From a virus: a DNA stretch of 22,284 nucleotides. The stretch covers positions 1 to 22,284 of IMG/VR virus record IMGVR_UViG_3300037492_000495; one strand, 5' to 3'. Shown here one piece after another: positions 4,679 through 20,973 of the stretch; positions within the stretch are counted from its first letter, which is position 1; every line of letters starts with the position of its first letter. Below the pieces are notes generated by a model. The model worked only from the letters and a program-made list of their open reading frames with translations, was not told the origin of the DNA and searched no databases. The translations under genes were made by a program, and so were the position numbers.

Positions 4679-5106
4679 TGGATGTTGCGAAAGCAGTGGC
4701 GGGCTGGGCTGACGGGATGCGCGGGCGCCCATGGGCGTGGGGGGAGTGCGACTGCAATACGGTCGTGCTTTCGTGGCTTGACGTCCTCACCCTTGGCGAC
4801 TACCTCGCCCTGGCTCTCCGCCGCTACTCCGACGAGGCATCCGCTCGCGCCTATGCCGAGAGCTGTGGCCATAGCCTGGAGTCGCTGGCCCGTGCCGCAG
4901 GTGGGGTGGCCGTGGTCGCTGGGTTCCAGCAGCCCGGGGATATCATCCTCGTGGCTCTCGACGGGGAGCCCTGGCAGCGCGGTCACGTTTGCGTTGGCAC
5001 CCGCGCGCTGTCCGCTCTCCCTGACATTGGCGTCGTGCAGGTACCTCTGGGGCTGATCCCGGCTCTCCGGACGATATTGAGGGTGCCATGCCGGCCGCGA
5101 TCGTAG
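4678..5106 (+). CDS. NlpC/P60-related tail tip protein (gpK position, DUF6950-like)
   Basis: 142 aa from ATG 4678 in a TAATG junction; a GTG at 4663 would add five residues but has no better ribosome site. The motif WAWGECDCNTVVLSW (residues 19-33) resembles the active-site region of small NlpC/P60-fold proteins, with the candidate nucleophile Cys26 after Asp25. Later come a GDIIL strand and RGHVCVG, whose His could be the second catalytic residue. In lambda-type tails the K gene product is a peptidoglycan peptidase located at the tip. The present protein is short and may be a degraded or purely structural member. Catalysis is not certain. The end overlaps the J-like gene by 19 bases. Confidence 0.66.
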   Translation: MDVAKAVAGWADGMRGRPWAWGECDCNTVVLSWLDVLTLGDYLALALRRYSDEASARAYAESCGHSLESLARAAGGVAVVAGFQQPGDIILVALDGEPWQRGHVCVGTRALSALPDIGVVQVPLGLIPALRTILRVPCRPRS

Positions 5107-7637
5107 CCATAGTCGCCGCCGGGGCTGGCGCCGCCGCTGCCGTGAGCATCGGGGGCGTTTTGGGCGCCATGGCCGGGGCCGCCATAGCCATGGGGATCTC
5201 CTACGGTGGGTACACGCTGGGCATCGGAGTGGTCAGCCCGGTCAGCCAGGCCAACGCCCGCGGCATCATGATCAACTATTCGGCCACCGACGCACCGATC
5301 GTCGTGCGGTACGGCACCCGGCGAGCGGGAGGTCCCCTGATCTACCTGGGGAGTGCCGGTCGCATCGTCGACCCCAGCTCATGGATTAACGCTCCGGCCT
5401 GGAACGACTACCTGTGGATTGTCATGATTCTTGGCGAGGGGGAGTGCGACACCGAGTCCCTGACCGATGACGACATTTGGTTTGATGGCACGTCGCTTTC
5501 GGACCACATCGCGGACTACCGGGCACACGTGGTCTGGGGCGCAATGTCCGGCTCTGATGACCAAGAGGCTGCCCCCGAACTGGTGGCCGGGATCTTGGAC
5601 TGGGGCGCCGATTGCCGGCTGCGTGGCGTAGCTTACGCCTGGTTCAGAATCCAATTCTCCCAGGCCTATTTCGGCGGTGGCATGCCGCAGATCACCGTCT
5701 ACTGCGGGAAGAAACTCTACGACCCTCGCACCGCCACGACGGCGTGGTCCAACAACGCTGCCCTTTGCGTGCGTGATTACTTGCTGAACCCTATCTATGG
5801 GTGGGGGGCCCATAAGGGAATCACCGTGGAGGACATTGACGAAGCCTCTTTCATCGCCGGTGCAAATTACTGCGATCAACTCATCACCGTTGATGGCGTG
5901 GAGATGCAGCGGTACAGGTGCAACGGCGTCCTCGACCCGTCTCAAGACCCAGACGACAATATGCAGTCCCTGCTGTCTTCATTACGCGGACAGATTGTCG
6001 AATCAGGAGGGAAGTACAAGCTGTTCGTTGACGCCCCGCGAGCGCCGGCGGACTTCGAATTCACCAAGGACAACATCATCGGTGACTGGATCATCCAGAT
6101 GGGCTCCCGCGCGACTCGGCTCAACCGGGTCAAGGCGAAATATTACCGCTGGGACGCGGACTGGCAGCCTGATTACGCGATCGCCGACAGCCCGTCCTAC
6201 CGCACGGTCGACGGCGAGCTGTTCCTCGAGCAGGAGATCAACCTGCCCTTTACCTCCGACTCCCATCGCGCCGGAATGCTGGCGGCCCAGCACTTGGCTG
6301 GAAGCCGGAGGGACCTGCTGGTGCAGTTCAACGCGCCGATCGAGGGGGCGCGCTGCGAGGTTGGAGACGTCGTCCCGATTACCCACGATAGACCGGGGTG
6401 GAGCGAAAAACTTCTGGACATCAAGAAGATTGACCTTCTCCCGGACGGTACCTGTCGAATCGTCGCCCGTGACTATGACCCGAGCGCCTACGACTACGAC
6501 AATGTGATCGCGGCCGACGATCCACCGGACACGGAACTTCTCGATCCTCTGACCGTGCAGCCTCCCGGGTCGCTGGCCCTAGAGGAGGAGCTCTACTCGA
6601 CCCGCAACGGAGCCGGCGTGAAGGCGAAGGCCACAATCACCTGGTCAGAGAGCCCTGATGCCTGGGTCACCCAGTACCAGGTTGAGATGAAGCGGTCGTC
6701 CTGGAGCGAATTCAAACTCACGGGGGTGACCCCTGGCACCACACTGGAGGTCCTCGACATCGAGCCGGGGGTCTACTGGGTCCGGGCCCGCTCCATGTCC
6801 AGCCTGGGCGTCATGAGCGCCTATTCGTCGCTCCTCCTGGCCGATGTCTCCGGCCTTCTGGCACTGCCGGCCTCCGTCACCGGCCTGACTGTCACGGCGA
6901 TCTCCGGGGTGGCCATGCTCAGCTGGGACCATAACCCAGATTTGGACGTGCGGATCGGTGGGCGGATCCGATTCCGCCACTACCAGGGCGCCACGCCGGC
7001 CTGGAACAAGGGCGGAGATCTCGGCGGGGGGGCGGTGCCCGGGGGGGCGACCACGGCCACCCTACCGCTGATGCAGGGCTACTACATGGCGAAAGCGGTC
7101 GACTCGAGCGGCCAGGAGAGCACCACCGAGGCCATCGTCTACAACTCAGCGCCCTCGCCCTTCGTGGTGACCGAGAACGCCGCCTCTCCGATCCAGGAGG
7201 ACGACACCTTCACTGGCACGAAGACCGACTGCGAGGTCATCAGCTCCGCCCTGCGGCTGACGGTCGTCGCCGGTGAGGTGACCGCGGCCGGCACATACAT
7301 GTTTGCCAACTCGCTGGACCTGGGCGCAGTGGAGATCGTGCAGCTGCGCCCAGAGATCGACGCGTCCGTCGCCAACGTCCAGGACCTGTTCGATTCGCGC
7401 ACCACGCTCATGGATGACTGGCCCAGCTGGGACGGATCGGCAGAGGCCCGCGCCGACGTCGCGGTCTACGTGCGGCACAAGGACACCGCCGGCGGAGCCT
7501 GGTCTGACTGGGAGCGGCTGTCCGGCGTGGGGGATTTTTCGGGCCGCTATTTCGAGTTCAAAGCCGGGCTCACGAGTTCGGACGTTGCGCACAACATCGT
7601 GATCAGCCAGCTGCGCGTGCGCGTCTGGAATTACTAG
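5088..7637 (+). CDS. Central tail tip / host specificity protein (J-like)
   Basis: 849 aa from ATG 5088, with TTGAGGG upstream. The N-terminus is an Ala/Gly/Ile-rich hydrophobic helix (1-50), as in lambda gpJ and relatives. The following ~430 residues form the hub/tip region (for example DAPIVVRYGTRRAGG, YLWIVMILGEGECD, FADPSQD-type loop, EINLPFTSDSHRAGMLAAQ). Two fibronectin type III-like units follow at about 491-590 and 593-685. The C-terminal ~160 residues (AGTYMFANSLDLGAVE, WSDWERL, DFSGRYFEFK) match the usual J-family end, which contacts the receptor. It is shorter than lambda gpJ (1132 aa). Two G7 runs lie in the second FN3 region (7026-7032, 7041-7047). Confidence 0.87.
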   Translation: MPAAIVAIVAAGAGAAAAVSIGGVLGAMAGAAIAMGISYGGYTLGIGVVSPVSQANARGIMINYSATDAPIVVRYGTRRAGGPLIYLGSAGRIVDPSSWINAPAWNDYLWIVMILGEGECDTESLTDDDIWFDGTSLSDHIADYRAHVVWGAMSGSDDQEAAPELVAGILDWGADCRLRGVAYAWFRIQFSQAYFGGGMPQITVYCGKKLYDPRTATTAWSNNAALCVRDYLLNPIYGWGAHKGITVEDIDEASFIAGANYCDQLITVDGVEMQRYRCNGVLDPSQDPDDNMQSLLSSLRGQIVESGGKYKLFVDAPRAPADFEFTKDNIIGDWIIQMGSRATRLNRVKAKYYRWDADWQPDYAIADSPSYRTVDGELFLEQEINLPFTSDSHRAGMLAAQHLAGSRRDLLVQFNAPIEGARCEVGDVVPITHDRPGWSEKLLDIKKIDLLPDGTCRIVARDYDPSAYDYDNVIAADDPPDTELLDPLTVQPPGSLALEEELYSTRNGAGVKAKATITWSESPDAWVTQYQVEMKRSSWSEFKLTGVTPGTTLEVLDIEPGVYWVRARSMSSLGVMSAYSSLLLADVSGLLALPASVTGLTVTAISGVAMLSWDHNPDLDVRIGGRIRFRHYQGATPAWNKGGDLGGGAVPGGATTATLPLMQGYYMAKAVDSSGQESTTEAIVYNSAPSPFVVTENAASPIQEDDTFTGTKTDCEVISSALRLTVVAGEVTAAGTYMFANSLDLGAVEIVQLRPEIDASVANVQDLFDSRTTLMDDWPSWDGSAEARADVAVYVRHKDTAGGAWSDWERLSGVGDFSGRYFEFKAGLTSSDVAHNIVISQLRVRVWNY

Positions 7638-7646
7638 GAGGGCTGA

Positions 7647-8663
7647 ATGAGCACCCACCAGCACGACATGAACATCGCCAACGCCGTGGGGCCGACAGCG
7701 CGTGCGGACATCAACGCCGCGCTGGTGGCGCTGCGGTCGTTGAACAGCGGAGTAGACGAACCGGCGTCAACTGCGGAATGGATGCTGTGGCTCGACGAAG
7801 ACAACATGCTCCTCAAGCTCCGCAACTCCAGCAACACCGCGTGGATCGAACTTCCGATTTCGATTAGTTCGAGCAACCGCACGAGTGGTGCCCTTATTGT
7901 AGCTGGGAGCATGACGTCCATCGGTGATCTAATCATGGGGCTCACTGCCTCGGGGTGGGCCCTTGTCTCCAGGCCGTTTCCTTCCGGAGACTATTTGCAG
8001 ATCACCCAGGCCGCCTCCGGTACTCCGGACATGACCAAGGGCATCCAGCTGCGCCGGACGACTGGGCGCGTCGGGATCGGAGTCGACAACCCGGCGCAGA
8101 TGCTCTCAGTCAACGGCAAGATCCAGTCCCTCAGCGGCGGACTTGTCTTCCCGGATGCGACCGAACAGAACACCGCGGGATCGATCGTGCGACTGCACCA
8201 AGTGCAGAAGACGGATACCTACTCAACGAGCAGCGGAACCTGGGACGACGTTACCGGTCTTAGCCTATCGATTACTCCCGCGTCGGCGAGCAGCATCTTC
8301 ATGGTCACGCTGGACCTGAAGGCCAGCAGCATGACCACCTTGTATTCTCCCGGTTACTTCCGCCTGATGAGGGACTCAACCCCGATCTCCGTCGGCGTCG
8401 CAGGAGACAATCGCACTGAGTGCACGGGTGTGATCCCATGTCTGGACGCCGGGACCTTCAGTGATCGCCAAATCTACAGCCTGACCGCGGTCGTGAAGGA
8501 TTCTCCGGCTACGGCATCGGCCATCGTCTACAAGGTACAGGTAAAGACCAGCGGCGGAGGGCATATTTACGTGAACCGCACTCAGCTCAATGATGATGCG
8601 GCCTACTGCGCCGTGGCCTGCAGCTCGATCGTGGTGCAGGAAGTCGTTCCGGGGGTGATCTGA
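7647..8663 (+). CDS. Tail fibre / receptor-binding protein
   Basis: 338 aa with a strong AGGAGGG site before ATG 7647. The N-terminal ~70 residues (ADINAALVALRSLNSG, WMLWLDEDNMLLKLRNSS) have the pattern of virion-attachment domains at the start of many phage fibres. Residues 141-160 (RVGIGVDNPAQMLSVNGKIQ) and 164-178 (GGLVFPDATEQNTAG) are the well-known fibre repeat signature, usually forming a trimeric beta stem. The C-terminal ~150 residues are beta-rich and probably bind the receptor. There is no peptidase-type chaperone domain and no visible depolymerase. It ends in a TGATG junction with the next small gene, suggesting that the two products act together. Confidence 0.82.
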   Translation: MSTHQHDMNIANAVGPTARADINAALVALRSLNSGVDEPASTAEWMLWLDEDNMLLKLRNSSNTAWIELPISISSSNRTSGALIVAGSMTSIGDLIMGLTASGWALVSRPFPSGDYLQITQAASGTPDMTKGIQLRRTTGRVGIGVDNPAQMLSVNGKIQSLSGGLVFPDATEQNTAGSIVRLHQVQKTDTYSTSSGTWDDVTGLSLSITPASASSIFMVTLDLKASSMTTLYSPGYFRLMRDSTPISVGVAGDNRTECTGVIPCLDAGTFSDRQIYSLTAVVKDSPATASAIVYKVQVKTSGGGHIYVNRTQLNDDAAYCAVACSSIVVQEVVPGVI

Positions 8664-9013
8664 TGTCGCGCTGCTTCATCGAAGAGGCGATTTCCAGTCT
8701 GTTCCCTGGAGAGAGCCCCCAGTACAGCCTCGACGGGGAGACCGTCGGCGGTGTCACATGGCTCGACCCGGTACTGACCGAACCGACTGCTGGGGAGATC
8801 ACTGCCGCGTTGGCGGCCGCAGAGGCCGCGTGGAATGCCACGAGCTATCTTCGCGCACGCTCGGCTGCAGCGGCCGCCCAGGGGATCACGGTTACTCGAA
8901 TGGCCGATGCACTCTACGCGGCCGCGGCTGAAGACGACTCGACTGATCTTGAAGCGATCTCTGCGAAGCTGGGATCGATCAAGGAAGACAACCCGATCCC
9001 GGAAGAGGTGTGA
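8663..9013 (+). CDS. Small fibre-associated protein (XkdW / DUF-type)
   Basis: 116 aa, coupled to the fibre gene by TGATG. Residues 1-50 contain the pattern P-x-x-x-Y-x-L-x-G-x-x-V-x-x-V-x-W followed by EPTAGEITAAL, which resembles small phage proteins encoded just after fibres and annotated as XkdW-like or tail fibre assembly proteins. The middle is Ala-rich and helical (LAAAEAAWNATSYLRARSAAAAAQ), and the end (MADALYAAAAEDDSTDLEAI) is acidic and helical. The protein could cap or assist folding of the fibre. The function is inferred from order and composition. Confidence 0.65.
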   Translation: MSRCFIEEAISSLFPGESPQYSLDGETVGGVTWLDPVLTEPTAGEITAALAAAEAAWNATSYLRARSAAAAAQGITVTRMADALYAAAAEDDSTDLEAISAKLGSIKEDNPIPEEV

Positions 9014-9015
9014 TC

Positions 9016-9420
9016 ATGATCCGGAAGATTGCAAGTGTACTGCTGCTGCTGGTGGTACTGGTGCTGTTGGCGACGATCGCTTCTGGGGCCGGGCCCTGGG
9101 GCTACAAATTCATCACCAAGGGTTTGCTCGATGTCACGTTGGACTTCGAGAAAGACCCGCAGCAGATCAATATCAAGGCATGGAGTGCACCCCTGCTCGC
9201 GCGCGCACGAACGGAAAACTATCTTCCGGCTGTTCCTGACGCGCGAAGCGATGTCGCGTCAGCGTGGGCTGACGGTGACACCACGATCACGATCGCGCCC
9301 GGTGACTGGGGCTTCATCGATTGCCAGGGGCGGCACATCCGCCACTTGACCTTGATTACGCCCAACTATTACAGCACATACGACTCAAACGCGACCGCTG
9401 CAACGGTTGAAGTGTGGTGA
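9016..9420 (+). CDS. Exported or membrane-anchored protein in the fibre region
   Basis: 134 aa. I chose ATG 9016 because GGAAGAGG at 9001-9008 gives a normal 7-base spacing; a GTG at 9010 would be too close. Residues 1-24 (MIRKIASVLLLLVVLVLLAT...) are a clear signal peptide or N-terminal anchor with a basic start and a 15-residue hydrophobic core. The rest (PWGYKFITKGLLDVTLDFE, DTTITIAPGDWGFIDCQG) is beta-rich, like a small surface protein. I do not recognise the family. A Sec signal is unusual for a virion subunit, since phage tails assemble in the cytoplasm. It may act in the envelope with the next gene, which also carries a signal peptide. Confidence 0.72.
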   Translation: MIRKIASVLLLLVVLVLLATIASGAGPWGYKFITKGLLDVTLDFEKDPQQINIKAWSAPLLARARTENYLPAVPDARSDVASAWADGDTTITIAPGDWGFIDCQGRHIRHLTLITPNYYSTYDSNATAATVEVW

Positions 9421-9425
9421 CCGAC

Positions 9426-12359
9426 ATGAAGCGCACTGTATTCTTCACGGCGTTATTGGTGCTGATCCTCGGCATGTTATCGGCAGCGGCGCCAGTGCAG
9501 CGGACCCGGGGCGGGGGAATGGTCGCGTCGCCCCACTACAGGCCAAGGATATTCACGAAAATCTTCACGGTCGGCCAGACGAGCAGCACTTTCGCGCCGT
9601 GGAGCACGCGCGCGCCGTGGAGTGCAACGGCACAGATGGTGGACTGTTCCGCGACGTGGGCGTGGGACGAGGTGTCGAGCAACTACCTCGCGCTGGCGGG
9701 CACGGACTCCGCTGTGGCGGGCGCCGGGGTGCAGGCTCGGTACGACGACTACGCTCGGGTGGGCTACGGTGACTGTTCTCAGAGTTTCGGCAACAGGCAC
9801 TCGCGTCGATTCGCGCAGAACAATGGCATCTCCAACAAGGTGACTCTGCTGTACCTGCCGTTCGAGGCGAGCATCCCGTCGAACGCGACGATTCTTTCGG
9901 CGGAGTTGGTGATCTCTCGTGAAGGCACGCAGTCGATGGGCGGGAGTGCTGGTCTGGACACGCTGTGGGGCGTGTTGATGACGAATGCGACAGACTCGGC
10001 GTGGCGTGCGGGGCCGAACACGGGCGACAACTCCGCGAAGTTCGCGGGGAAGCGTGCGGCGTCGTGGGCCAATCAGGTCCAGCCGGTGCGAAGCGATGAC
10101 TCGACCTATGTCAATCGGCGCGCCGGTTATCCGGATTCGTCCGCAGCCGTGGTCGCGTGGTCGCCATCCCTGTCCGCCCGCGTGCGCCCGGTTGACTGGG
10201 GCTATCGTGGGTTGGGCTACGTCGTGCCGACTGGGTTCAACAACGCGGCAGATACGTCGAAGTGCTACGTCATCGACGTTAAGCGTCCGGTGCAGAAGGC
10301 GGTAAGCGGGTCGGTCAACAACGGCTTCGCTCTGTTGTACTCGTCGTCCTACACGACCCGCACGGGATCGCTTCGGGTGTCTCCGAATCCGGCCAACGCG
10401 AACCACCGCCCGTTCCTGAAGGTGACGTACACGACTTCGCCGTACAACGGCGGGCCGTGGGCGGGCAGGGAAGTCGGGTTCGCCTTCGCGACCGACGACG
10501 GGATTCTGGACGCGAACGACGCCTACGCCGCGGTCTTCGCGGCGAGGGATCTGTCATATTCCGTGTTTGTGAATCAGGGACATACAGAGGCGGTCGCCCC
10601 CGCTATCCCCAAATCCAACTACGCTCATTTGCTGCAATATTGGGAAGACGGGATGGAGATCGGCTCGCACGGGAGGCGGCACGGGAAAGGGAGCGACATC
10701 ACGGGGTTGCTCGCGTGGAGCGATAATTCGCTCCTGGTTTCTGGTGCCGGCGTCACGGTGTCGGGAGTGTTGCAGGATTCGTTGACGTTCGAAATGTCTC
10801 CGGCGTGGATCGACTCCGGCTTGGCTGCGGTGTCTGGTGTTGACGAATACACGCTTGGTACCATGACGGCCAGCCCCACCTGTGGGAAGACGATGGCGGC
10901 TCCGCAAGGCGGGTTCACACTCGGCATTCTCGGCAAGGCTTACGATCTCGGATATTACGGATTCCGCTCGGCGGGCGGATACGGCGCGGGATCGTCATCG
11001 GTACGGCCAATTCCGGGCGATACGCTTGGCGTGATGATGGGAGACGGAAATGCCGGTAACTCGTGGCTTCGTAACGCCGGCCTGACCACGCCGCGAAGGC
11101 AGAACAACTACGCATTCCGAATAGGGCCGCAATTTGCGGGCGGCGAAATCGGCATCGACGTGTTGACGATGAACGGCGCGACTCCGCTCAACAACGCGGC
11201 TACCGACAGCGTGAATTTCAAGCGGGCGGTGCGCGGCTTGATCGACCAGGCCGCCGCAAACGGGAACGAATACATGGTATGGCTTTCGCACGCCCTCGCC
11301 AGCAACCCCGTCGGGTATACCGGCCTGATAGACGTCAACCAATTGGGCTGGGCTCTCGACGCGATGGAGGAATCCGGAAACGTCGCGGTGATGAATTTCG
11401 GAACGCTGGCAAAGACGTTCCAAGCGGGGATGTTGCCCGTAGATCATCCAGCGTGGGGAACGCTGTCGTGGCAGAATGCGATCAAAGCCGACGGTCCCTA
11501 CCCGATGTGGGGAATCGCGCGCGATTCTTACGTTGCGCCGGCTCCGGCCACTCCTGCTCTTGCCGATACTCACTACACCATTGTTGCCACTTCTCCGCTA
11601 GCTCCGCGGCGTATATCTCTGGACACCCGCGCCCATTGCTGGACCGCGACACCTACGGATTCAGTGACAGATGGGGTGGCATGGACGCAGTTGGATTATG
11701 GCTCCACCTCGGCCAAGAGAGATTCGGCCGGATACTATGGGTCGCGTGCGAACGATTTAATACTTGTCGGAGATGCGTATGAAACGAACATATCTCAAGG
11801 GAGTGCTTCAAACAACCCGATCCCCATAATCCACCTGCCGTATACCGTACCTGTTGGCAGGGCGATTGCCGAGGCCAGGTTGTTTATCTATGTCTATCCG
11901 TCAAACCCGATCGTTCTAGACGCGGCCTATTCCGATACCTTTTTTGTATTCGCGGATACCACATCCGGGAACCACGAACTGTGGTACGCTGCCGGGAACG
12001 TCAATCGTCCCATATGGCAGACGTTTCCCACGGCGTCTCCGTGGATTCATCGCGGTCGTTCGTCATACAACAGCGTCGTTTGGAACGAAAGCACGGCATG
12101 GTCCCCTACGCTGGCCTCGTTAGACGTATCCGGCGAGGTCGGGCCATCCGTGATTCTCACCTCCGAAGACAATCCCGGATCGTACTGCAATTTCGTTGGG
12201 TTCGATGTAACAGCTTTGATCAGGGACCATACGGTCTACGCCTTTCGCCTCTGCATGAAGACGGGAGACAGCACGGAGGCCGTCTGGATGGGCAATCCCG
12301 ATGCTGAGATCAAGGCGAAGCGACCGTTCTTACTGGTGAAGACGATCCCGACCCCTTAG
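9426..12359 (+). CDS. Secreted CE4/NodB polysaccharide deacetylase-like protein with DNRLRE-like modules
   Basis: 977 aa from ATG 9426. An upstream in-frame GTG at 9414 or 9417 is possible, but the ATG gives a classic signal peptide (MKRTVFFTALLVLILGMLSA). Residues ~30-335 and ~720-977 are beta-rich and resemble DNRLRE/CBM96-like modules (LLYLPFEASIPSNATILSAE near the start, FDVTALIRDHTVYAFRL at the end). The middle, about 345-640, fits the NodB homology domain: motif 1 FATDDG (Asp357, Asp358), motif 2 GSHGRRH (His415, His419), a motif-3-like AAPQGG stretch, and motif 5 VWLSH (His622). This is consistent with metal-dependent removal of acetyl groups from a glycan. The Arg usual in motif 3 is not evident. 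The gene lies between fibre and lysis genes. The role could be capsule or cell-wall modification, or a virion depolymerase. Confidence 0.72.
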   Translation: MKRTVFFTALLVLILGMLSAAAPVQRTRGGGMVASPHYRPRIFTKIFTVGQTSSTFAPWSTRAPWSATAQMVDCSATWAWDEVSSNYLALAGTDSAVAGAGVQARYDDYARVGYGDCSQSFGNRHSRRFAQNNGISNKVTLLYLPFEASIPSNATILSAELVISREGTQSMGGSAGLDTLWGVLMTNATDSAWRAGPNTGDNSAKFAGKRAASWANQVQPVRSDDSTYVNRRAGYPDSSAAVVAWSPSLSARVRPVDWGYRGLGYVVPTGFNNAADTSKCYVIDVKRPVQKAVSGSVNNGFALLYSSSYTTRTGSLRVSPNPANANHRPFLKVTYTTSPYNGGPWAGREVGFAFATDDGILDANDAYAAVFAARDLSYSVFVNQGHTEAVAPAIPKSNYAHLLQYWEDGMEIGSHGRRHGKGSDITGLLAWSDNSLLVSGAGVTVSGVLQDSLTFEMSPAWIDSGLAAVSGVDEYTLGTMTASPTCGKTMAAPQGGFTLGILGKAYDLGYYGFRSAGGYGAGSSSVRPIPGDTLGVMMGDGNAGNSWLRNAGLTTPRRQNNYAFRIGPQFAGGEIGIDVLTMNGATPLNNAATDSVNFKRAVRGLIDQAAANGNEYMVWLSHALASNPVGYTGLIDVNQLGWALDAMEESGNVAVMNFGTLAKTFQAGMLPVDHPAWGTLSWQNAIKADGPYPMWGIARDSYVAPAPATPALADTHYTIVATSPLAPRRISLDTRAHCWTATPTDSVTDGVAWTQLDYGSTSAKRDSAGYYGSRANDLILVGDAYETNISQGSASNNPIPIIHLPYTVPVGRAIAEARLFIYVYPSNPIVLDAAYSDTFFVFADTTSGNHELWYAAGNVNRPIWQTFPTASPWIHRGRSSYNSVVWNESTAWSPTLASLDVSGEVGPSVILTSEDNPGSYCNFVGFDVTALIRDHTVYAFRLCMKTGDSTEAVWMGNPDAEIKAKRPFLLVKTIPTP

Positions 12360-12388: not shown

Positions 12389-12625
12389 ATGACGACTGAA
12401 AAGCGGGGCTGGAAAATCTCCAGAGAGATCAGGCTCGGCGAGCTCCTCACCATGCTGGTATTCGTCATCACGATGCTCGGCATCGTGCGAAAATCAGAGC
12501 TACGGGTCGTTGACCTTGAGGCGGCGACAAGGGCCAACTCAGAGTCTATATCGAGGCTGGCGGCCATTGTCGACCGGGACCATGACCTGATTGTGAAGCA
12601 CGACGCGATGCAGGCGGTACGCTGA
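12389..12625 (+). CDS. Small membrane protein with coiled coil (lysis cassette)
   Basis: 78 aa. ATG 12389 is preferred over ATG 12377 because GGAGGA (12379-12384) sits four bases upstream. One hydrophobic segment spans roughly residues 18-34 (LGELLTMLVFVITMLGI), and the C-terminal half is charged and helical (LEAATRANSESISRLAAIVD), likely a coiled coil. Similar short proteins with W-x-I-S-R-E-I-x-L-G starts are frequent just before phage endolysins. It could be a holin-like or accessory membrane protein. It overlaps the lysozyme start (TGATG), so it is co-translated with it. Confidence 0.7.
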   Translation: MTTEKRGWKISREIRLGELLTMLVFVITMLGIVRKSELRVVDLEAATRANSESISRLAAIVDRDHDLIVKHDAMQAVR

Positions 12626-13230
12626 TGCTCTGGGGCGGCCGCATTGTCGGGCCAGAAGATCCGATCTACGCCGACGCGGCGCAGGTCCACGGGCTAGACC
12701 TGGCGCTGGTGCTGGCGATTGCGGAGGTCGAGTCGAGCTACTGCCAGGCGGCACGCAACCCTGAGCCGCAGTACCGCTACCTCGTGGACGTGACGACGTG
12801 GCGACCATTCCGCGCGCTGACCGCGGCCGAAGGCGCGAGCGAATCGCCGCCGGCCGACTTCCCGGCTCCCCCTGGCGTCCCGCGCGATGAGGAGTGGCAG
12901 GGGCAGCAGGCGTCGTGGGGGCTCATGCAGGTGATGGGCGGCGTCGCGCGTGAGTTGATGCGCACGATCGCCGGCGGCCGGGCGCCGCTGTTTCTCGGCG
13001 AGCTGATCGCCGATCCGTCGCTCGCCGTGGATCTGAGCTGTCGCCACCTCAAGGCGAAGCTCGCGCGGTATGACGGCGACACGGCCAGCGGGATTGCAGC
13101 CTACAACGCGGGGTCGGCGGTCGTGCTGGCCGACGCCCAGGGCCGGAAGGTATTCGGCAATCAGGTGTACGTGGACAAAGTGACTGCCGCGCTCGCGCGA
13201 CACGCGACGCGGATTGGAGGTGCGGCATGA
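12625..13230 (+). CDS. Lytic transglycosylase (SLT-type endolysin)
   Basis: 201 aa from ATG 12625. The soluble lytic transglycosylase / goose-type lysozyme fold is recognisable from AIAEVESSY (catalytic Glu36 followed by Ser37), SWGLMQV (97-103), AAYNAGS (158-164) and YVDKV (182-186). The enzyme should cleave the beta-1,4 bond between MurNAc and GlcNAc with formation of a 1,6-anhydro product. An insert of about 50 residues separates the ES and GLMQ motifs, as in many phage SLT proteins. There is no signal peptide, so release would need a holin. It lies in the lysis cassette with two membrane proteins, and its stop overlaps the next start (ATGA). Confidence 0.88.
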   Translation: MLWGGRIVGPEDPIYADAAQVHGLDLALVLAIAEVESSYCQAARNPEPQYRYLVDVTTWRPFRALTAAEGASESPPADFPAPPGVPRDEEWQGQQASWGLMQVMGGVARELMRTIAGGRAPLFLGELIADPSLAVDLSCRHLKAKLARYDGDTASGIAAYNAGSAVVLADAQGRKVFGNQVYVDKVTAALARHATRIGGAA

Positions 13231-13430
13231 ACTGGCTCAACAACGGATCGAAAACGCTCGTGACGTGCGTGGGGATCGCCGCGGTCGCCGTGATGGCATG
13301 CTTCGAGGTGCTGTCGGCGGACCAGGCGCTCGGCACGATCGTCCTCATGGCCGGCGCTTATGCCGGCGCGAATCTGTACCAGAACGGGAAAGCGCCGGCG
13401 CCGCCGGCAGAACAGGAGAAGACGCCGTGA
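13227..13430 (+). CDS. Small two-helix membrane protein, holin candidate
   Basis: 67 aa, ATG 13227 overlapping the endolysin stop. Two hydrophobic segments are visible, at about 11-27 (LVTCVGIAAVAVMACF) and 34-50 (ALGTIVLMAGAYAGANL), followed by a Pro/Ala/Glu-rich hydrophilic tail (KAPAPPAEQEKTP). Size, topology and position directly after the endolysin fit a class II-type holin that permeabilises the inner membrane. I cannot tell it from an antiholin by sequence alone. Confidence 0.72.
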   Translation: MNWLNNGSKTLVTCVGIAAVAVMACFEVLSADQALGTIVLMAGAYAGANLYQNGKAPAPPAEQEKTP

Positions 13431-13894
13431 ACATCGTTGACCGCCTCGGAGTGCTGCTGTGGGGGATCATCTCGCACGTCTACGAGATCCTGCCGAAGAT
13501 CCTCGCCGCGCTCAAGCTGCTCGGATTCGACAAGTGGGAAGCGGAGATCCGCGCGGCGATCCACCGTGGCGGGCTCGCGATCGACGATTTCGTGGAGCAG
13601 CACGCCGTCAAGATCATCAGCATCGCGTGTCTGTTTGAGCGGATCGCGGGGCTGTTCGCCTCGAAAGCGGCGCTGTTGAGAGAGCTGCATGAGGAGGGCA
13701 CCCGGCCGCGTGCGCCGGGCGAAGAGGATCTGTTCGACGAGGAGCGGGTGGCCTACTACCTCTGCGCCTTCGCCGCGCACGACGCTCAGATGGTCCAGTT
13801 GCAGGGGGCCGGCGAGGAAGTGACGCTCGCCCTGGCCGATGCCGCGGCAGTCGGCGTGCGGCCGGACGTTTCGCAGTCGCCGACGCTCGCGTAG
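13427..13894 (+). CDS. Unknown helical protein at end of late operon
   Basis: 155 aa from GTG 13427 (GTGA overlap with the previous stop; AGGAG about 8 bases upstream). The first ~70 residues are hydrophobic and amphipathic helices (LGVLLWGIISHVYEILPKIL, VKIISIACLFERIAGLF) without a clean signal peptide. The second half is acidic and helical (PGEEDLFDEERVAYYLCAFA). I do not recognise a family. Position after the holin candidate suggests a membrane-associated lysis accessory protein such as a spanin-like factor, but no lipobox or spanin pattern is present. It is the last + strand gene before the convergent accessory genes and is followed by strong hairpins. Confidence 0.68.
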   Translation: MNIVDRLGVLLWGIISHVYEILPKILAALKLLGFDKWEAEIRAAIHRGGLAIDDFVEQHAVKIISIACLFERIAGLFASKAALLRELHEEGTRPRAPGEEDLFDEERVAYYLCAFAAHDAQMVQLQGAGEEVTLALADAAAVGVRPDVSQSPTLA

Positions 13895-13939
13895 CAAGCC
13901 GCGTCCGGGGCGCAATCTCCCGCCCTGGCGGCGCGGCAA

Positions 13940-13969
13940 GGGGGGCGGTTCGCGGCGGAGCCGCCCCCC
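13940..13969 (+). terminator. GC-rich hairpin ending the late operon
   Basis: GGGGGGCGG (13940-13948) pairs perfectly with CCGCCCCCC (13961-13969) around a 12-base loop, 45 bases after the last late gene. No U-run follows on the + strand (CGAAAAG), so it is not a textbook intrinsic terminator, but the stem is very stable. Confidence 0.6.
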
Positions 13970-13978
13970 GAAAAGATC

Positions 13979-14005
13979 GAGGGCCCCTCAGCGGTGGGGG
14001 CCCTC
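13979..14005 (-). terminator. Terminator of the leftward accessory genes
   Basis: GAGGGCCCC (13979-13987) and GGGGCCCTC (13997-14005) form a 9-bp perfect stem with a 9-base loop. Read leftward, the stem is followed by GATCTTTTC, a short U-tract, which fits an intrinsic terminator for the minus-strand gene ending at 14028. With the neighbouring hairpin it insulates convergent transcription. Confidence 0.7.
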
Positions 14006-14027
14006 GTTGCGTTGGGGGGAGCCGCGA

Positions 14028-14621
14028 CTACTGGTCGCGCTCGGAGAGGATCGATCGCCGCATTTTGCGGTACTCGCGGCGGATCAGATCGGGCAGCGCG
14101 TCGCGGCTGGCGGAAATCAACGTGGGCCCGCGATGGGCCAGCAGATCGCATACCTGAGTGGTGTCTCCGGACGGCAGCAGCTCGACCACGTACCCTCCGT
14201 CCGACGGGCACGTGAATCGCCGCGTCCTGCGCAGATCCGTCCAGTCCCGATACTCGATGATGACCCGGCCGACGTCGTCCACCGTCAGGCGCATTTTCGG
14301 CGGTCGCCCGCCGCCGCGATCCGTGCGCCGCGAGTTGGCCCGCTGCGCCGGGCTGCCCACGGATCCGCCCATTCGGCCAAATGCGGCGGCCGCGCGCGCC
14401 GTCACGTGATCGACGACGATCAGCCGCCAGCAGTCGTCAGCGTAGGCGGTGCGCAGCGCGGCCGTCGCCTCCGCCTCCGTCGCGCCGGACACCTCGATAC
14501 TCTCGCCGTCGGCACGGTGCCACTGGTAGCGGCAGTCGCCGCGATCCTCTCCGTCGTCTACGATGTGCAGATGCACGCGGCCGCCGCTCTCCTGATCGAT
14601 GATGCTGGCCTTAGTCTTCAT
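14028..14621 (-). CDS. Unknown accessory protein
   Basis: 197 aa. The start is ATG at 14621, behind AAGGAGAG on the minus strand; the open frame continues upstream but that part is low-complexity and Arg-rich. The N-terminal ~75 residues look like a small alpha/beta domain (ASIIDQESGGRVHLHIVDDG, ATEAEATAALRTAYADDCWR). A basic, Gly-rich linker (~85-108) follows, then a second alpha/beta unit (RVIIEYRDWTDLRRTRRF, GYVVELLPSGDTTQVCDLLA) and a basic helical tail. I do not recognise the family. It sits downstream of the small Cys protein, 40 bases away and under the same promoter, between the lysis cassette and the att region. A lysogeny-expressed (moron) gene is a reasonable reading. Confidence 0.68.
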   Translation of the reverse strand: MKTKASIIDQESGGRVHLHIVDDGEDRGDCRYQWHRADGESIEVSGATEAEATAALRTAYADDCWRLIVVDHVTARAAAAFGRMGGSVGSPAQRANSRRTDRGGGRPPKMRLTVDDVGRVIIEYRDWTDLRRTRRFTCPSDGGYVVELLPSGDTTQVCDLLAHRGPTLISASRDALPDLIRREYRKMRRSILSERDQ

Positions 14622-14661
14622 GATCGTCTCTCCTTCTGCCGGCGTGGCCGGCGGTCGATAT

Positions 14662-14904
14662 CTAGGCCTCGTCAGCGTGGCGGCTGCATGCGTACATGCT
14701 GCCGATCGAGCGCCAGGCCGCGCCGGCGCAGCCGCAGACCTCGCAGCGTCGCGTGGCCAGCATGGCCGGCATCGCCGGAGCAGCTGCGGAGGCCGCGCGC
14801 CGGGCTGCTTTCGCCGCGCGCGCCGGGGCCTTGCTCGCCTGTATTTCTTCCCACGCCCTGCGCCCGTCTTCCGCGATCTGCTCTGCCGTCCTCTGGTCCG
14901 CCAT
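14662..14904 (-). CDS. Small Cys-rich, possibly zinc-binding protein
   Basis: 80 aa from ATG 14904 with GGAGGCGGAGAG upstream on the minus strand. The first half is a charged, Ala-rich helix (RTAEQIAEDGRRAWEEIQAS). The C-terminal part contains C54-x2-C57, C59 and C73-x2-H76, a plausible single zinc knuckle. Small proteins of this kind are common phage accessory products and may bind nucleic acid or a protein partner. A good sigma70-like promoter lies 46-74 bases upstream, and the expected 5' leader is about 39 bases, which supports the chosen start. Confidence 0.66.
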   Translation of the reverse strand: MADQRTAEQIAEDGRRAWEEIQASKAPARAAKAARRAASAAAPAMPAMLATRRCEVCGCAGAAWRSIGSMYACSRHADEA

Positions 14905-14949
14905 CTCTCCGCCTCCTGTCTCGCGCCCCCCGTCACCTACCACACCTAT

Positions 14950-14978
14950 AGTATCGCCACGGATGGTATTTTGGTCAA
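14950..14978 (-). promoter_or_regulatory. Sigma70-like promoter for the accessory genes
   Basis: On the minus strand TTGACC (14978-14973) is followed after 17 bases by GATACT (14955-14950), matching the -35 box in 5 of 6 and the -10 box in 4 of 6 positions. It stands in an AT-rich island within high-GC DNA. The transcript would start near 14943 and reach the ATG at 14904. This suggests expression independent of phage late control. Confidence 0.65.
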
Positions 14979-15008
14979 TGGAATAATGCGATTTATACGA
15001 TATATATT

Positions 15009-15056
15009 GCTGCCGGCCACCAAAATCTGGCACGGCCGATGCTACCGGCCGGCAGC
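15009..15056. repeat. 48-bp inverted repeat (10-bp perfect arms)
   Basis: GCTGCCGGCC (15009-15018) and GGCCGGCAGC (15047-15056) are perfect inverted copies around 28 bases; 6 of the 14 inner pairs also match. It could be a hairpin or a second recombinase-type site. The total span equals that of the site at 15174-15221. Confidence 0.5.
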
Positions 15057-15173
15057 GGCGAGGCAGCGGCGCGGGAAAGCGCCCGCCCACGTCGCCCGCC
15101 ACGAGCGCCGCAGGGGCCGGCGCTGCGTCGATGGCCAAACGGGGTCACGATCGCGCTGTGGGCATCGTCGTGT

Positions 15174-15221
15174 GTCCAGTAAAAGGAAACTCCGGCGATC
15201 CTATATTTCCAATTGCTGGAC
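15174..15221. other. Candidate phage attachment site (attP) of the serine integrase
   Basis: Two-part inverted arms GTCCAG-5 nt-GGAAA (15174-15189) and TTTCC-5 nt-CTGGAC (15206-15221) match in 13 of 16 positions around a 16-base centre. Large serine integrases use attP sites of about 48-50 bp with such imperfect inverted arms (for example the 48-bp Bxb1 attP), usually beside int. The centre (15197/15198, GA) is 3-4 bases beyond the integrase stop codon, so recombination would leave the integrase intact. No U-run follows either way, which argues against a terminator. Confidence 0.55.
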
Positions 15222-16661
15222 GCCCTGTCCGAAGCCCTCGACGGTCACGGCGCCGTCGGGGTAGAGCGTCAGACGGGTCAGGTAGGGCCGCAGTTCCCGG
15301 ACGTCGTGGACGTCGGCCAAGGCGGCGCGGGCGGCGGCCAGCGCCTGGGCGAGAGGGACAGGCGCTACGGTGGCGCCCAGGGCGCGCACTGTGGCTCGGA
15401 CGACGTCCCGGCGCTCCTGCACCTGCTGGATCCTCTGTACGACCAGCTCGGTGGAGCTGCCGGCGAGGCGCAGGTCGATCAGGGCCGTCTCCTGTCGGTC
15501 GAGCTCGGCGAGCTGGGCTTCGAGGGGGGCACGGTCGCGGGCGGCGGACAGAGCCTCGGCGTACTCGATCTCCACGGCGGCCTGGGCGGCGGCCTCGAGC
15601 TCGCCGGCATCGAGCAGGGTCCGCCACCAGGCGAGTACCGCCGCTTCGAGGGAAGAGACGAGCACCCGCGAGCGGTTGCTGCATGTGCCGTGGCGCCAGC
15701 CCTGGCAGACGTAGCGGGGTGCGCAGGTGCGGCGCTTCGCCTCGCTGCCGCGGTTGAAGGTTCCCTCGATCCAGCACCTCCGGCCGCAGCTGGCGCAGGT
15801 GACCAGTCCGGAGAGCGGGTAGGCTCGCGCCGGCGCCGACGGCCCGCGACGGCCAGGGGCGTAGCGGGCCCGGACCCGCGCCCACAGGTCGGGGGGAATG
15901 AACTGCTCGATGCGCCCGGGGACCTCCTGACCCGCTCGCCAGCGCTGGATCAGGCCACCATATGCCGCCCCGTAGAGGATCCGGCGGACTCCCGGACCAC
16001 TCCAGGCGTCTCCGCGGCGTGGGGGGTGGCCAGCGCGGTTGAGGCGGCGGGCGATCTCGATCGGGGTCACGCCGGCATCGGCCCACTGGTATACACGCAG
16101 CACGTGGGGGGCGTGATCTGGGTGCGCGATGAGCTCGCGGCCGCCGGCGCCCTGACGACTCTGGTAACCGTAGGGCGGCGGCCACATCCAGTAGCCCTGG
16201 GCCGTTCGCGCCTCGAGGCTGCGCTTCACCGCGCGCGACAGCTTCGTCACGTACTCGGCGGCGCCGGCGGCCTTCAGCGACAGCATCACCTGACCAGTGA
16301 GGGTGGCGAGGTCCAGCTCGCCGTCCTTCGTGTCGGCGATCCCGATCCCGCGGCGATGCAACTGCAGGGCTTCGATCAGGCCGTCAGCCCAATCTCTCGA
16401 CCATCGGTCGAGATCCCAGACGACGACCACCCCGCCGTGGGGGAGGCCGCCTGCCTCGATCCATTTCAGGAGGCGGTCCCAGCCCTCGCGGGCGTCGCGG
16501 CCCTTGCGGCCGGAGACGCCGTCGTCGCGCTCCTCATGGATGATGCGCAGGCCAGCGCCGGCGGCGAACCTGCGGCAGGCCTCGACCTGCTGCGGGATGC
16601 TCGCGGCCTGGGCCTCTTTCTTCGTGGAGACCCGGGCGTAGATGGCGCAGGGGCGAATCAA
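15201..16661 (-). CDS. Large serine recombinase (phage integrase)
   Basis: 486 aa. The start is TTG 16661, with GAGG five bases upstream and a TTGA overlap with the preceding gene's stop; the next Met is far inside the catalytic core. Domains: resolvase catalytic domain 1-150 with YARVST (Arg10, nucleophile Ser12), the conserved DLDRWSRD (84-90) and the E helix; recombinase DNA-binding domain about 155-265; zinc ribbon with C289-x2-C292, C313/C319 and C327; long coiled coil about 365-425; and a C-terminal beta tail. It should form a tetramer, make 2-base staggered cuts with Ser-DNA bonds, and exchange attP with attB. Length is normal. No excisionase-like recombination directionality factor is recognised nearby. 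Confidence 0.93.
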   Translation of the reverse strand: MIRPCAIYARVSTKKEAQAASIPQQVEACRRFAAGAGLRIIHEERDDGVSGRKGRDAREGWDRLLKWIEAGGLPHGGVVVVWDLDRWSRDWADGLIEALQLHRRGIGIADTKDGELDLATLTGQVMLSLKAAGAAEYVTKLSRAVKRSLEARTAQGYWMWPPPYGYQSRQGAGGRELIAHPDHAPHVLRVYQWADAGVTPIEIARRLNRAGHPPRRGDAWSGPGVRRILYGAAYGGLIQRWRAGQEVPGRIEQFIPPDLWARVRARYAPGRRGPSAPARAYPLSGLVTCASCGRRCWIEGTFNRGSEAKRRTCAPRYVCQGWRHGTCSNRSRVLVSSLEAAVLAWWRTLLDAGELEAAAQAAVEIEYAEALSAARDRAPLEAQLAELDRQETALIDLRLAGSSTELVVQRIQQVQERRDVVRATVRALGATVAPVPLAQALAAARAALADVHDVRELRPYLTRLTLYPDGAVTVEGFGQGVQQLEI

Positions 16662-17299
16662 TGCGGCCTCGGCAAGTCTGGCAGGGGCTCGATGGGCTCA
16701 TAGCCTCCAGGTGGGCGGCCATGTTTTCCAGTCGCCCCGATCGCCGCTCCAAATCCGATGACCATCCCGGACGGCTTGGAGCTGTAGCCGATCTGAATCG
16801 CGGAACTCGGGGAGACTCTTGCGAGCAGGCCTCCGGTCAGCTGCAAGTTGAACGAGTCTCCGGCGCCGATCCAGTACTGACCATTGGTGCCGAGAATGTG
16901 CATTGGGTCGTAGCGTTGCTGGTACTTGTTGATGGCCGAGTAGCCGACGCCTGAGTAAACGACGACCGAGGAGCCGAGGCCAAATGAAGGACCGATCGCA
17001 CCCGAGATGGCTCTTTCTACGTTGTCGCGCACGGGGTCTCCCCACGAGTCGGATAGCTGGGAACTGATGTTGTCGTAATAGTCCTTCGACCGCCAGGAGA
17101 AGAGCAGCTGCGCGAAAAGCCCTATGCTGCCAGAGTTCACGTGTGCAGCGGATAATCCGACCCACTGCGAGGCTTGGGGGTTCATGCAGAAGCAGATGTA
17201 ATCGACGCGTCCCCTCTTCGCCTCGGCCGCCGCGGCTCGATCTGCCCCGGTGAGGGGGATTGCGCACAGGGCGAGACAAACCACGATCGCGGATCTCAT
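16658..17299 (-). CDS. Exported beta-barrel-like protein in the lysogeny operon
   Basis: 213 aa from ATG 17299, six bases after AGGAGG; an in-frame GTG at 17305 lies inside that site. A signal peptide is clear (MRSAIVVCLALCAIPLTGA, probable cut after AAAA at 25). The mature protein alternates hydrophobic and polar residues in strands rich in Gly, Ser and Tyr (GLFAQLLFSW, SFGLGSSVVVYSGVGYSA, FNLQLTGGLLARV, SSAIQIGYSS, GMVIGFGAAIG), as in small outer-membrane barrels. A Pro-rich tail (PPGGYEPIEPLPDLPRP) follows, so the usual terminal aromatic of an outer-membrane protein is absent. Expression with the integrase suggests a lysogenic-conversion role such as blocking superinfection. This is inference; the family is not recognised. 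Confidence 0.7.
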   Translation of the reverse strand: MRSAIVVCLALCAIPLTGADRAAAAEAKRGRVDYICFCMNPQASQWVGLSAAHVNSGSIGLFAQLLFSWRSKDYYDNISSQLSDSWGDPVRDNVERAISGAIGPSFGLGSSVVVYSGVGYSAINKYQQRYDPMHILGTNGQYWIGAGDSFNLQLTGGLLARVSPSSAIQIGYSSKPSGMVIGFGAAIGATGKHGRPPGGYEPIEPLPDLPRPH

Positions 17300-17325
17300 G
17301 TTCACCCTCCTGAGTGGTCACTCGT

Positions 17326-17589
17326 TTATGGTCGTCCCGCGACTCCAGCGTTCCCCCAGCGGCGCCACGTCATGTCCGCCGGGGTGCACCAGTAGATGCC
17401 CCCATCCTCGGATAACGCATAGAACATCTTCTCGGCCTTGTAGCCTTGGCGGTCCACCTGGTCGAGCCAGAAGGAAACGAACCGGACGGTGGGAGTCTCA
17501 GCAGCCGCCGGCCTGATCATTCGGGCCGAGGCCGCCAGCATGAGCACTCCCAGACACACCAGCAAGAAGTTCCGCACCTTGGTCGTCAT
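17326..17589 (-). CDS. Small exported protein
   Basis: 87 aa from ATG 17589, with a GGGGGG stretch upstream. Residues 1-30 form a signal peptide (MTTKVRNFLLVCLGVLMLAA, likely cut after PAAA). The mature part is about 57 residues (TVRFVSFWLDQVDRQGY, YALSEDGGIYWCTPADMTW) with one Cys and many aromatic residues. I do not recognise the family. It lies 26 bases upstream of the exported beta-barrel-like gene and overlaps the small ORF at 17498-17818 in another frame. Together the two exported products may act in the envelope of the lysogen. Confidence 0.66.
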   Translation of the reverse strand: MTTKVRNFLLVCLGVLMLAASARMIRPAAAETPTVRFVSFWLDQVDRQGYKAEKMFYALSEDGGIYWCTPADMTWRRWGNAGVAGRP

Positions 17590-17818
17590 GGCTACCCCCC
17601 GAAATTGTAGACTCGGCGGCTGCGCCCTCCACCCCTTCTGGCTGAGCATTATTCTCTCGCTCTCCGCGTCCACTCTCCATCTTCGCCAGCGACTCATCCA
17701 TCGCCCGCAGTTGCTCGACCAATGACAGTAGCAGATCCAGCGTAGCGCGATCCACGGCAGACCCCCCTGAAGCATCGGTTGTTAAGCGGGGGCGGATCCA
17801 TCCGGGGAGAGCGGTCAT
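17498..17818 (-). CDS. Possible small helical protein overlapping the exported-protein gene
   Basis: 106 aa from ATG 17818, 15 bases after the regulator stop. There is no clear ribosome site. Residues 20-50 (DRATLDLLLSLVEQLRAMDE) form an amphipathic helix that resembles the C-terminal helix of the upstream regulator (DEVLQLVRSIEERLLRLRGN), which supports real coding in the first two thirds. The last third is Gly/Ala-rich and overlaps the 17589 gene for about 92 bases. It may be a coiled-coil partner of the regulator. Its existence is uncertain. Confidence 0.5.
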   Translation of the reverse strand: MTALPGWIRPRLTTDASGGSAVDRATLDLLLSLVEQLRAMDESLAKMESGRGERENNAQPEGVEGAAAESTISGGSHDDQGAELLAGVSGSAHAGGLGPNDQAGGC

Positions 17819-20217: not shown

Positions 20218-20973
20218 ATGCTGGATGCCAGCGCAGTCAAGGAGTTGGCCGCTCAGTCGGCGCGGCCCCACATCGCGAAGGTAGGCGGGATCGAGTACGC
20301 CTTCGTCCCCAGTGGGGACGGGAAGTGGCAGCTGGCGACCGGCGTTTCGATTCGCCCCCTGGGCCCGGATCCGCTCAATTTCCGCACTCTCACTGGATTG
20401 GCCGACTACCTCAAAGCGGACAACGACGATCTGCGCGGTCCGGAGAAGCTGGCCCTGCATGTCTGTGACCACCAGGTGGTCAGGCTGGTCGGATCGCTCG
20501 GAGTGGATGCCTTTTCCAGCAGACATACCTACGCCGTGGCGACCGTGGGACTCTCGTCGTTCGGGTTCGGCCACTTTTTGGAGCAGGAGATCTTCCAGAT
20601 CGCCCTGCAGACGCAGTTCGTCGACACGCCCGAGCGCGAGGAGCTGCTGAAGTTCATCGCCAGCGTGAAGAGCGGGCCGGCACGCGAGGTAGTCGACGAC
20701 CGGGTCGCCCAGATGGTGACCACTCGTCGTGGCGTTCAGATGTCGGCAGCCACGCCCGTTCCCAGCCCGATCAACCTGCGGCCGTTCCGCACCTTTCGCG
20801 ACGTCGACCAGCCGGTCAGTCCGTTCGTCTTCCGCGCCCGGGGGGGCGGCGATGACGAGACGCCCGAGTTCGCCCTGTTCGCGGCCGACGGCGACGTCTG
20901 GACCCTGAACGCGATCGCGTCCATCGCAGCCAAGCTGAAGGAACTTGCCCCGGAGGTCCAGGTCCTGGCCTGA
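20218..20973 (+). CDS. Conserved early phage protein, partner of the 19861 gene
   Basis: 251 aa from ATG 20218, behind AGGAGGAG with seven-base spacing. Features: GGIEYAFVPSG near the start, FRTLTGLADYLKADNDDL (about 60-78), FVDTPEREELLKFIASVKSG (about 138-157), REVVDDRVAQMVTTRRGV, then PINLRPFRTFRDVDQPVSPF and FRARGGGDDETPEFALFAAD (to about 224). These blocks match from memory a family of unnamed proteins in gut and soil Bacillota phages, encoded next to the 19861-type gene. It is a mixed alpha/beta protein without catalytic motifs I can name. The final helices (WTLNAIASIAAKLKELAPEV) end the family's typical form. A G7 run lies at 20840-20846. Confidence 0.74.
   Translation: MLDASAVKELAAQSARPHIAKVGGIEYAFVPSGDGKWQLATGVSIRPLGPDPLNFRTLTGLADYLKADNDDLRGPEKLALHVCDHQVVRLVGSLGVDAFSSRHTYAVATVGLSSFGFGHFLEQEIFQIALQTQFVDTPEREELLKFIASVKSGPAREVVDDRVAQMVTTRRGVQMSAATPVPSPINLRPFRTFRDVDQPVSPFVFRARGGGDDETPEFALFAADGDVWTLNAIASIAAKLKELAPEVQVLA

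Follow-up and report, generated by a model that had tools for sequence, protein, structure and literature searches.

We found that a complete IMG/VR virus record of 22,284 bp, referred to here as the window, encodes between its tail genes and its SLT lysis gene a 977-aa, putatively exported protein (9426-12359, + strand; ATG at 9426, with an alternative GTG start at 9414) that contains a divergent CE4/NodB-like domain. We propose that this gene codes for a glycan deacetylase of the CE4 superfamily, expressed late and exported through Sec, which would act on the host envelope or exopolysaccharide, a reading to which we give a probability of about 0.45. It is supported by relatives that pass the PF01522 cut-off, by a four-row profile, by co-linearity with two cellular proteins (L114 and L115), by the late position of the gene and by synteny with a second phage contig, that of G074. 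The missing Arg of motif 3, the unrecognised motif 4 and the low confidence of the structure models count against an active deacetylase.

Results

Position in the late operon

The 977-aa ORF begins 5 nt past the preceding stop, in one co-directional late block, and its G+C is similar to that of its neighbours. Tape measure and distal tail protein genes are followed, all on the + strand, by the central tail fibre J protein (5088-7637; PHROG 31, E 1e-83), a tail fibre-like protein (7647-8663), a small gene of PHROG 9114 (8663-9013) and, directly upstream of the CE4-like gene, a 134-aa protein with a hydrophobic N-terminus, putatively exported (9016-9420). Downstream, a short ORF lies before the gene of an SLT transglycosylase (endolysin; 12625-13230, + strand; PF01464, E 3e-10), after which a possible small membrane protein is encoded on the + strand. 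This arrangement bears out the phage late region proposed in an earlier note on this DNA.

A serine recombinase gene lies on the - strand. Beside it, two genes on the same strand (16658-17305 and 17326-17775) encode signal-peptide-like segments, the product of the first resembling a small outer-membrane beta-barrel; both are possible lysogenic conversion genes. Additionally, the gene at 20218-20973 (+ strand) encodes a PHROG 1029 protein (E 2e-48), a family whose function is unassigned.

The CE4/NodB-like domain

By homology and motifs, the domain covers residues about 345-662 (10458-11411, + strand). The earlier note had read TDDG, SHGRRH, AAPQGG and WLSH, in this order, as the signature of a NodB domain, and all four are at the positions it gave, Asp358, His415 and His419 being the correct metal-ligand positions by motif. 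Motif 1 is T356-D357-D358-G359 (10491-10502), with D357 as the putative base and D358 as a putative metal ligand; motif 2 is E411-I-G-S-H415-G-R-R-H419 (10656-10682), whose H415 and H419 are the other putative ligands; and motif 5 is W619-L-S-H622 (11280-11291), in which L620-S-H622 forms the LxH. The equivalent of motif 3, MAAPQGG (10893-10913), contains the A491-A-P-Q-G-G496 block (10896-10913) and has Ala in the place of the usual Arg, while no motif 4 (DxxD/W) was recognised by eye in the window domain, this region being poorly aligned. The TxDD, HxxxH and LxH motifs of the CE4 family are therefore present and a motif 3 with Arg (RxxP-type) is absent; the predicted base, the three metal ligands and the His of motif 5 are all intact. 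In a nine-row alignment of the window protein and its relatives DDG is invariant. In alignments with relatives, WLSH is matched by YWH or YTH, and AAPQGG by ALPTNS of L114 and L115 and by AYPxH of loci L103-L106, which also lack the Arg. The CE4 enzymes PgaB and IcaB likewise deviate at motif 3.

The whole protein gave no CE4 match against Pfam, PHROG or PDB, and no SGNH match against Pfam or NCBIfam. When the trimmed domain was searched, PF01522 was its single Pfam match, in register, at E 0.066 and 13.6 bits against a cut-off of 23.1. A four-row profile (the window domain with those of L083, L061 and L002) matched 12 PDB chains, 11 of them of the CE4/deacetylase superfamily (best E 2e-4), although two ordinary CE4 rows partly drive these matches. 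Two related proteins of Krumholzibacteriota, L083 and L102, are above the PF01522 cut-off with the same catalytic stretch (E 1.4e-8 and 1.1e-9, respectively); because the window domain scores below it while these score above, we regard the domain, on sequence grounds, as a divergent CE4/NodB homologue and not as a confirmed CE4 enzyme. This homology is firm for residues about 343-419, as judged from the alignments. For residues about 420-660 it rests on the co-linear alignment with L114 and L115 and on where AAPQGG, FRS and WLSH lie; this second half aligns only with L114/L115, L103-L106 and L118, none of them above the Pfam cut-off. In this sense, the family assignment of the earlier note stands through its PF01522-positive relatives and is tempered by the sub-threshold Pfam score, the absent Arg and the unrecognised motif 4.

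Structure prediction with AF2 was uninformative from the single sequence (mean pLDDT 32) and only slightly better with a six-row alignment in which motif 3 was misaligned (pLDDT 43, pTM 0.49). Examined for the (beta/alpha)7 barrel of the family, the latter model alternates between strands and helices towards either end of the domain. A Foldseek search with this low-confidence model returned no match below E 0.001; its top two matches are the CE4 enzymes 2iw0 and 2c71, with probabilities of 1.00 and 0.99 over about 70 columns and E above 0.01.

Signal peptide and flanking modules

Residues 1-22 (MKRTVFFTALLVLILGMLSAAA; 9426-9491, + strand) have the typical pattern of a Sec signal by inspection and hydropathy, in agreement with the signal peptide predicted in the earlier note, and signal-like N-termini are also found in the L114, L115 and L118 proteins. 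An N-terminal DNRLRE-like (CBM96-like) module is proposed for residues 137-334 (9834-10427, + strand), where the protein matches NCBIfam NF033679 and aligns with L114 and L115. With the whole protein this match reaches E 3e-7 and 30.7 bits, under the curated cut-off of 34 bits, and is thus suggestive. The C-terminal region (11628-12350, + strand) is beta-rich, ends in RPFLLVKT and has the same look as the N-terminal flank, being DNRLRE-like by eye only; a custom HMM did not find a significant C-terminal copy (i-E 0.018). From the pair of DNRLRE-like flanks originally described, the N-terminal one is retained below threshold and the C-terminal one is seen by eye only, and the profile search which had been recommended stayed under the cut-off for both NF033679 and PF01522. 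No N-terminal virion-anchoring domain was recognised in the 977-aa protein. Alginate is bound by the founding CBM96, whose identity to DNRLRE domains is about 30% (PMC9971899).

Relatives in Krumholzibacteriota

Searches with CE4-motif patterns gave mostly chance matches, but L083, L061, L002 and L124 are real CE4s; L083, a protein of a Candidatus Krumholzibacteriota MAG, came from a scan of 84,980 genomes. Within this little-known phylum, the window domain has matches in 8 of the 80 genomes searched, and the identity over window residues about 343-419 is 34-40%. Single loci gave tblastn E values from 4e-13 to 3e-7 (at the same residues, 4e-13 for L099/L083 and 5e-12 for L102) and L100 gave 1e-16 over 322 residues, a similarity which, by these E values, exceeds chance. 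In L083 (2118-3533), L102 and L105 what seems to be the end of a deacetylase domain (AYPxH ... YTH) precedes the beginning of another (TDDG ... EIGSH), cut short, as though there were two domains or a permuted one.

The L114 and L115 proteins, 85% identical to each other, have a signal-like N-terminus and an extra N-terminal domain, besides a DNRLRE-like part followed by a CE4 domain. Through the latter two they align with the window protein co-linearly at 26-27% identity (E 3.7e-26 over 530 aa and E 1.2e-23 over 390 aa). The NCBIfam DNRLRE profile has no match in either of them, the term DNRLRE-like resting here on the alignment with the window protein. L115 sits in an exopolysaccharide locus with a UDP-GlcNAc 2-epimerase (wecB-type), glycosyltransferases, a polysaccharide flippase, an MBOAT O-acyltransferase and a sub-threshold match to a GDSL esterase, and a glycosyltransferase is also nearby on the L114 contig. 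Together with the alginate binding of CBM96, the neighbours of L115 are a hint toward exopolysaccharide as the substrate. Peptide patterns, whether taken from the whole protein or from the window/L114/L115 alignment, retrieved no relative from IMG/VR, and tblastn against named phages (50,697 records) and plasmids also gave none.

Phage relatives and the slot after J

The J protein is nearest to proteins of Krumholzibacteriota genomes (G007, 41% over 843 residues; G074, 40% over 701 residues), with at most 30% identity to named phages, and its tail neighbours are also common to these relatives. The J copy of G007 is on a 124-kb contig and that of G074 on a phage contig of 37 kb that carries a terminase; the host of the latter is assigned by binning. 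The window has no host-flanking sequence, and we infer from this kinship that its phage belongs with Krumholzibacteriota. Phages or prophages bearing this J were seen in 4 of 78 genomes of the phylum (G007, G074, G050 and G049; loci L116, L118, L119 and L120).

The G074 contig (L118) has the same order as the window: J, the fibre, the homologue of the gene at 8663, a small signal-peptide protein and a signal-peptide protein with CE4-like and DNRLRE-like parts, the DNRLRE match being weak (E 0.017). A small signal-peptide protein thus precedes the CE4-like gene in both phages (window, 9016-9420; L118, 4974-5366, - strand), and no similarity beyond the signal was found between the two. In the CE4-like domain of G074, TGNHH replaces HGRRH and the metal His equivalent to H415 is lost, so catalysis may not be conserved. 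This domain is nearest to the host enzymes L103, L104 and L106 and not to that of the window (tree, 90/93), with blastp E values of 3e-7 to L103 and L106. A tree constrained to group the domains of the two phages has a lower likelihood (p-AU 0.055), which suggests that both phages may have acquired them separately.

Elsewhere, 80 IMG/VR contigs carrying J relatives had no match to a custom CE4 profile, and the G007 prophage (L116), which has a holin in the region, carries no CE4-like gene. The window and G074 have a signal-peptide-like + strand ORF of at least 200 aa within 6.5 kb after J, while none was found with a crude signal predictor in the 30 testable J relatives (IMG/VR contigs that extend 4.5 kb or more beyond J). 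In the J relatives L137, L138 and L140 the slot is occupied by large proteins, possibly fibres. An apparent diversity-generating retroelement is present in the near relatives L127 (about 12430-15385), L128 and L129; in L127 the homologue of the fibre at 7647-8663 has a lectin-like end, followed by repeats of this end and by an ORF for a reverse transcriptase (YMDD). A 541-aa ORF of L127 with a terminal HxxxH-like motif was considered as a CE4 and rejected, its YMDD identifying it as the reverse transcriptase.

Discussion

If the 977-aa protein is an exported deacetylase, it would be made late, alongside the tail and lysis proteins, and would leave through Sec to the periplasm or the surface before lysis, where the N-terminal DNRLRE/CBM96-like module, and perhaps also the C-terminal region, would anchor it on acidic or acetylated surface polysaccharide. 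Acetyl groups would be removed by the CE4 domain with D357 as the base and a metal held by D358, H415 and H419. The exopolysaccharide altered in this way may no longer trap the progeny on receptor glycan, or other phages may become unable to bind. Exclusion of other phages is plausible because phage Aristophanes failed to infect cells that had first been treated with a purified phage deacetylase (PMC8471582). Given the export signal, entry as a component of the virion is the least fitting of the roles that the earlier note had considered (entry, release or exclusion).

Even so, that the protein is a tail fibre or decoration of the virion, deacetylating surface glycan at adsorption, is the leading alternative, though an unlikely one. 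The gene comes shortly after those of J and the fibres, in the slot which L137, L138 and L140 use for large possible fibres, and there are precedents in the SGNH tailspikes of Possum (PMC9569702) and Aristophanes (PMC8471582) and in the turret head of HFTV1, with its sugar-binding-like and deacetylase-like domains (PMC12494034). However, the N-terminus is signal-peptide-like in the window protein as well as in its G074 counterpart and host relatives, a virion-anchoring domain was not recognised, and the domain order agrees with that of secreted host proteins.

There is also a small chance that the CE4 domain lacks catalytic activity and that the protein serves as a secreted glycan-binding shield or exclusion protein. 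The deviations at motifs 3 and 4 and the lost metal His of G074 would fit, CE4 pseudoenzymes exist (e.g., PDB 7bkf) and two CE4 lipoproteins were reported without activity (PMC4505593), but the window protein retains the base Asp, each of the three ligands of the metal and the His of LxH.

A slighter chance is left for a peptidoglycan deacetylase that would help the SLT transglycosylase to lyse the cell. Peptidoglycan is the substrate of many CE4 enzymes, such as PgdA and PdaC, the SLT gene is adjacent and a periplasmic location would fit; against this, the DNRLRE-like module and the relatives in exopolysaccharide loci indicate a surface polysaccharide, and the related holin-bearing prophage L116 does without such a gene. 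It is highly improbable that mis-assembly fused a cellular gene to phage sequence. The best relatives are cellular and the named phage records gave none, but the 5-nt spacing in a co-directional operon, the G+C and the counterpart at this position in G074 speak for a genuine phage gene.

Returning to the exported deacetylase, a wider proposal, tentative and rather doubtful, is that phages of Krumholzibacteriota recruited host-type secreted proteins with CE4 and DNRLRE-like parts, possibly separately, into a fixed slot between tail fibre and lysis genes, remodelling host exopolysaccharide from inside for release or exclusion. If true, such recruitment would be the deacetylation counterpart of the surface-antigen conversion performed by phages. 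The kinship with host proteins beside exopolysaccharide genes provides a concrete substrate candidate, and the analysis links a phage family with Krumholzibacteriota; a literature search combining this phylum with phage found, judging by titles and abstracts, no paper on its phages.

Compared with known systems, the window protein shares with CE4/NodB (PF01522) the order of TxDD, HxxxH and LxH and a first half related to PF01522-positive proteins, and it differs in Ala for Arg at motif 3, the unrecognised motif 4, TDDG instead of T/S-F-DDG, a sub-threshold Pfam score and extra residues between motifs 2-3 and 4-5. With DNRLRE/CBM96 (NF033679; PMC9971899) the likeness is the below-cut-off match of residues 137-334. 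L114 and L115 have the same co-linear succession of signal-like N-terminus, DNRLRE-like part and CE4, but they are cellular, with exopolysaccharide genes beside them, an extra N-terminal domain and no C-terminal beta region after CE4. Phage deacetylases described so far are SGNH tailspikes (PMC9569702, PMC8471582) or, with a CE4-like fold, a virion turret (PMC12494034). The turret head of HFTV1 is also virus-encoded and also combines sugar-binding-like and CE4-like deacetylase domains; it belongs, however, to the capsid turret of an archaeal virus and its structure was solved, whereas the window protein bears a predicted signal peptide and is encoded beside tail and lysis genes. The tailspikes G7C gp63.1, Possum gp66 and Aristophanes gp41 deacetylate host surface polysaccharide, the activity proposed here, but have an unrelated SGNH fold and are attached to the virion, unlike a protein with CE4 motifs and a signal-peptide-like N-terminus. 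Known phage glycan deacetylases are virion spikes for adsorption, and an exported CE4-like protein with a carbohydrate module in a late operon would represent a different strategy, in which the coat of the producing cell is changed before lysis.
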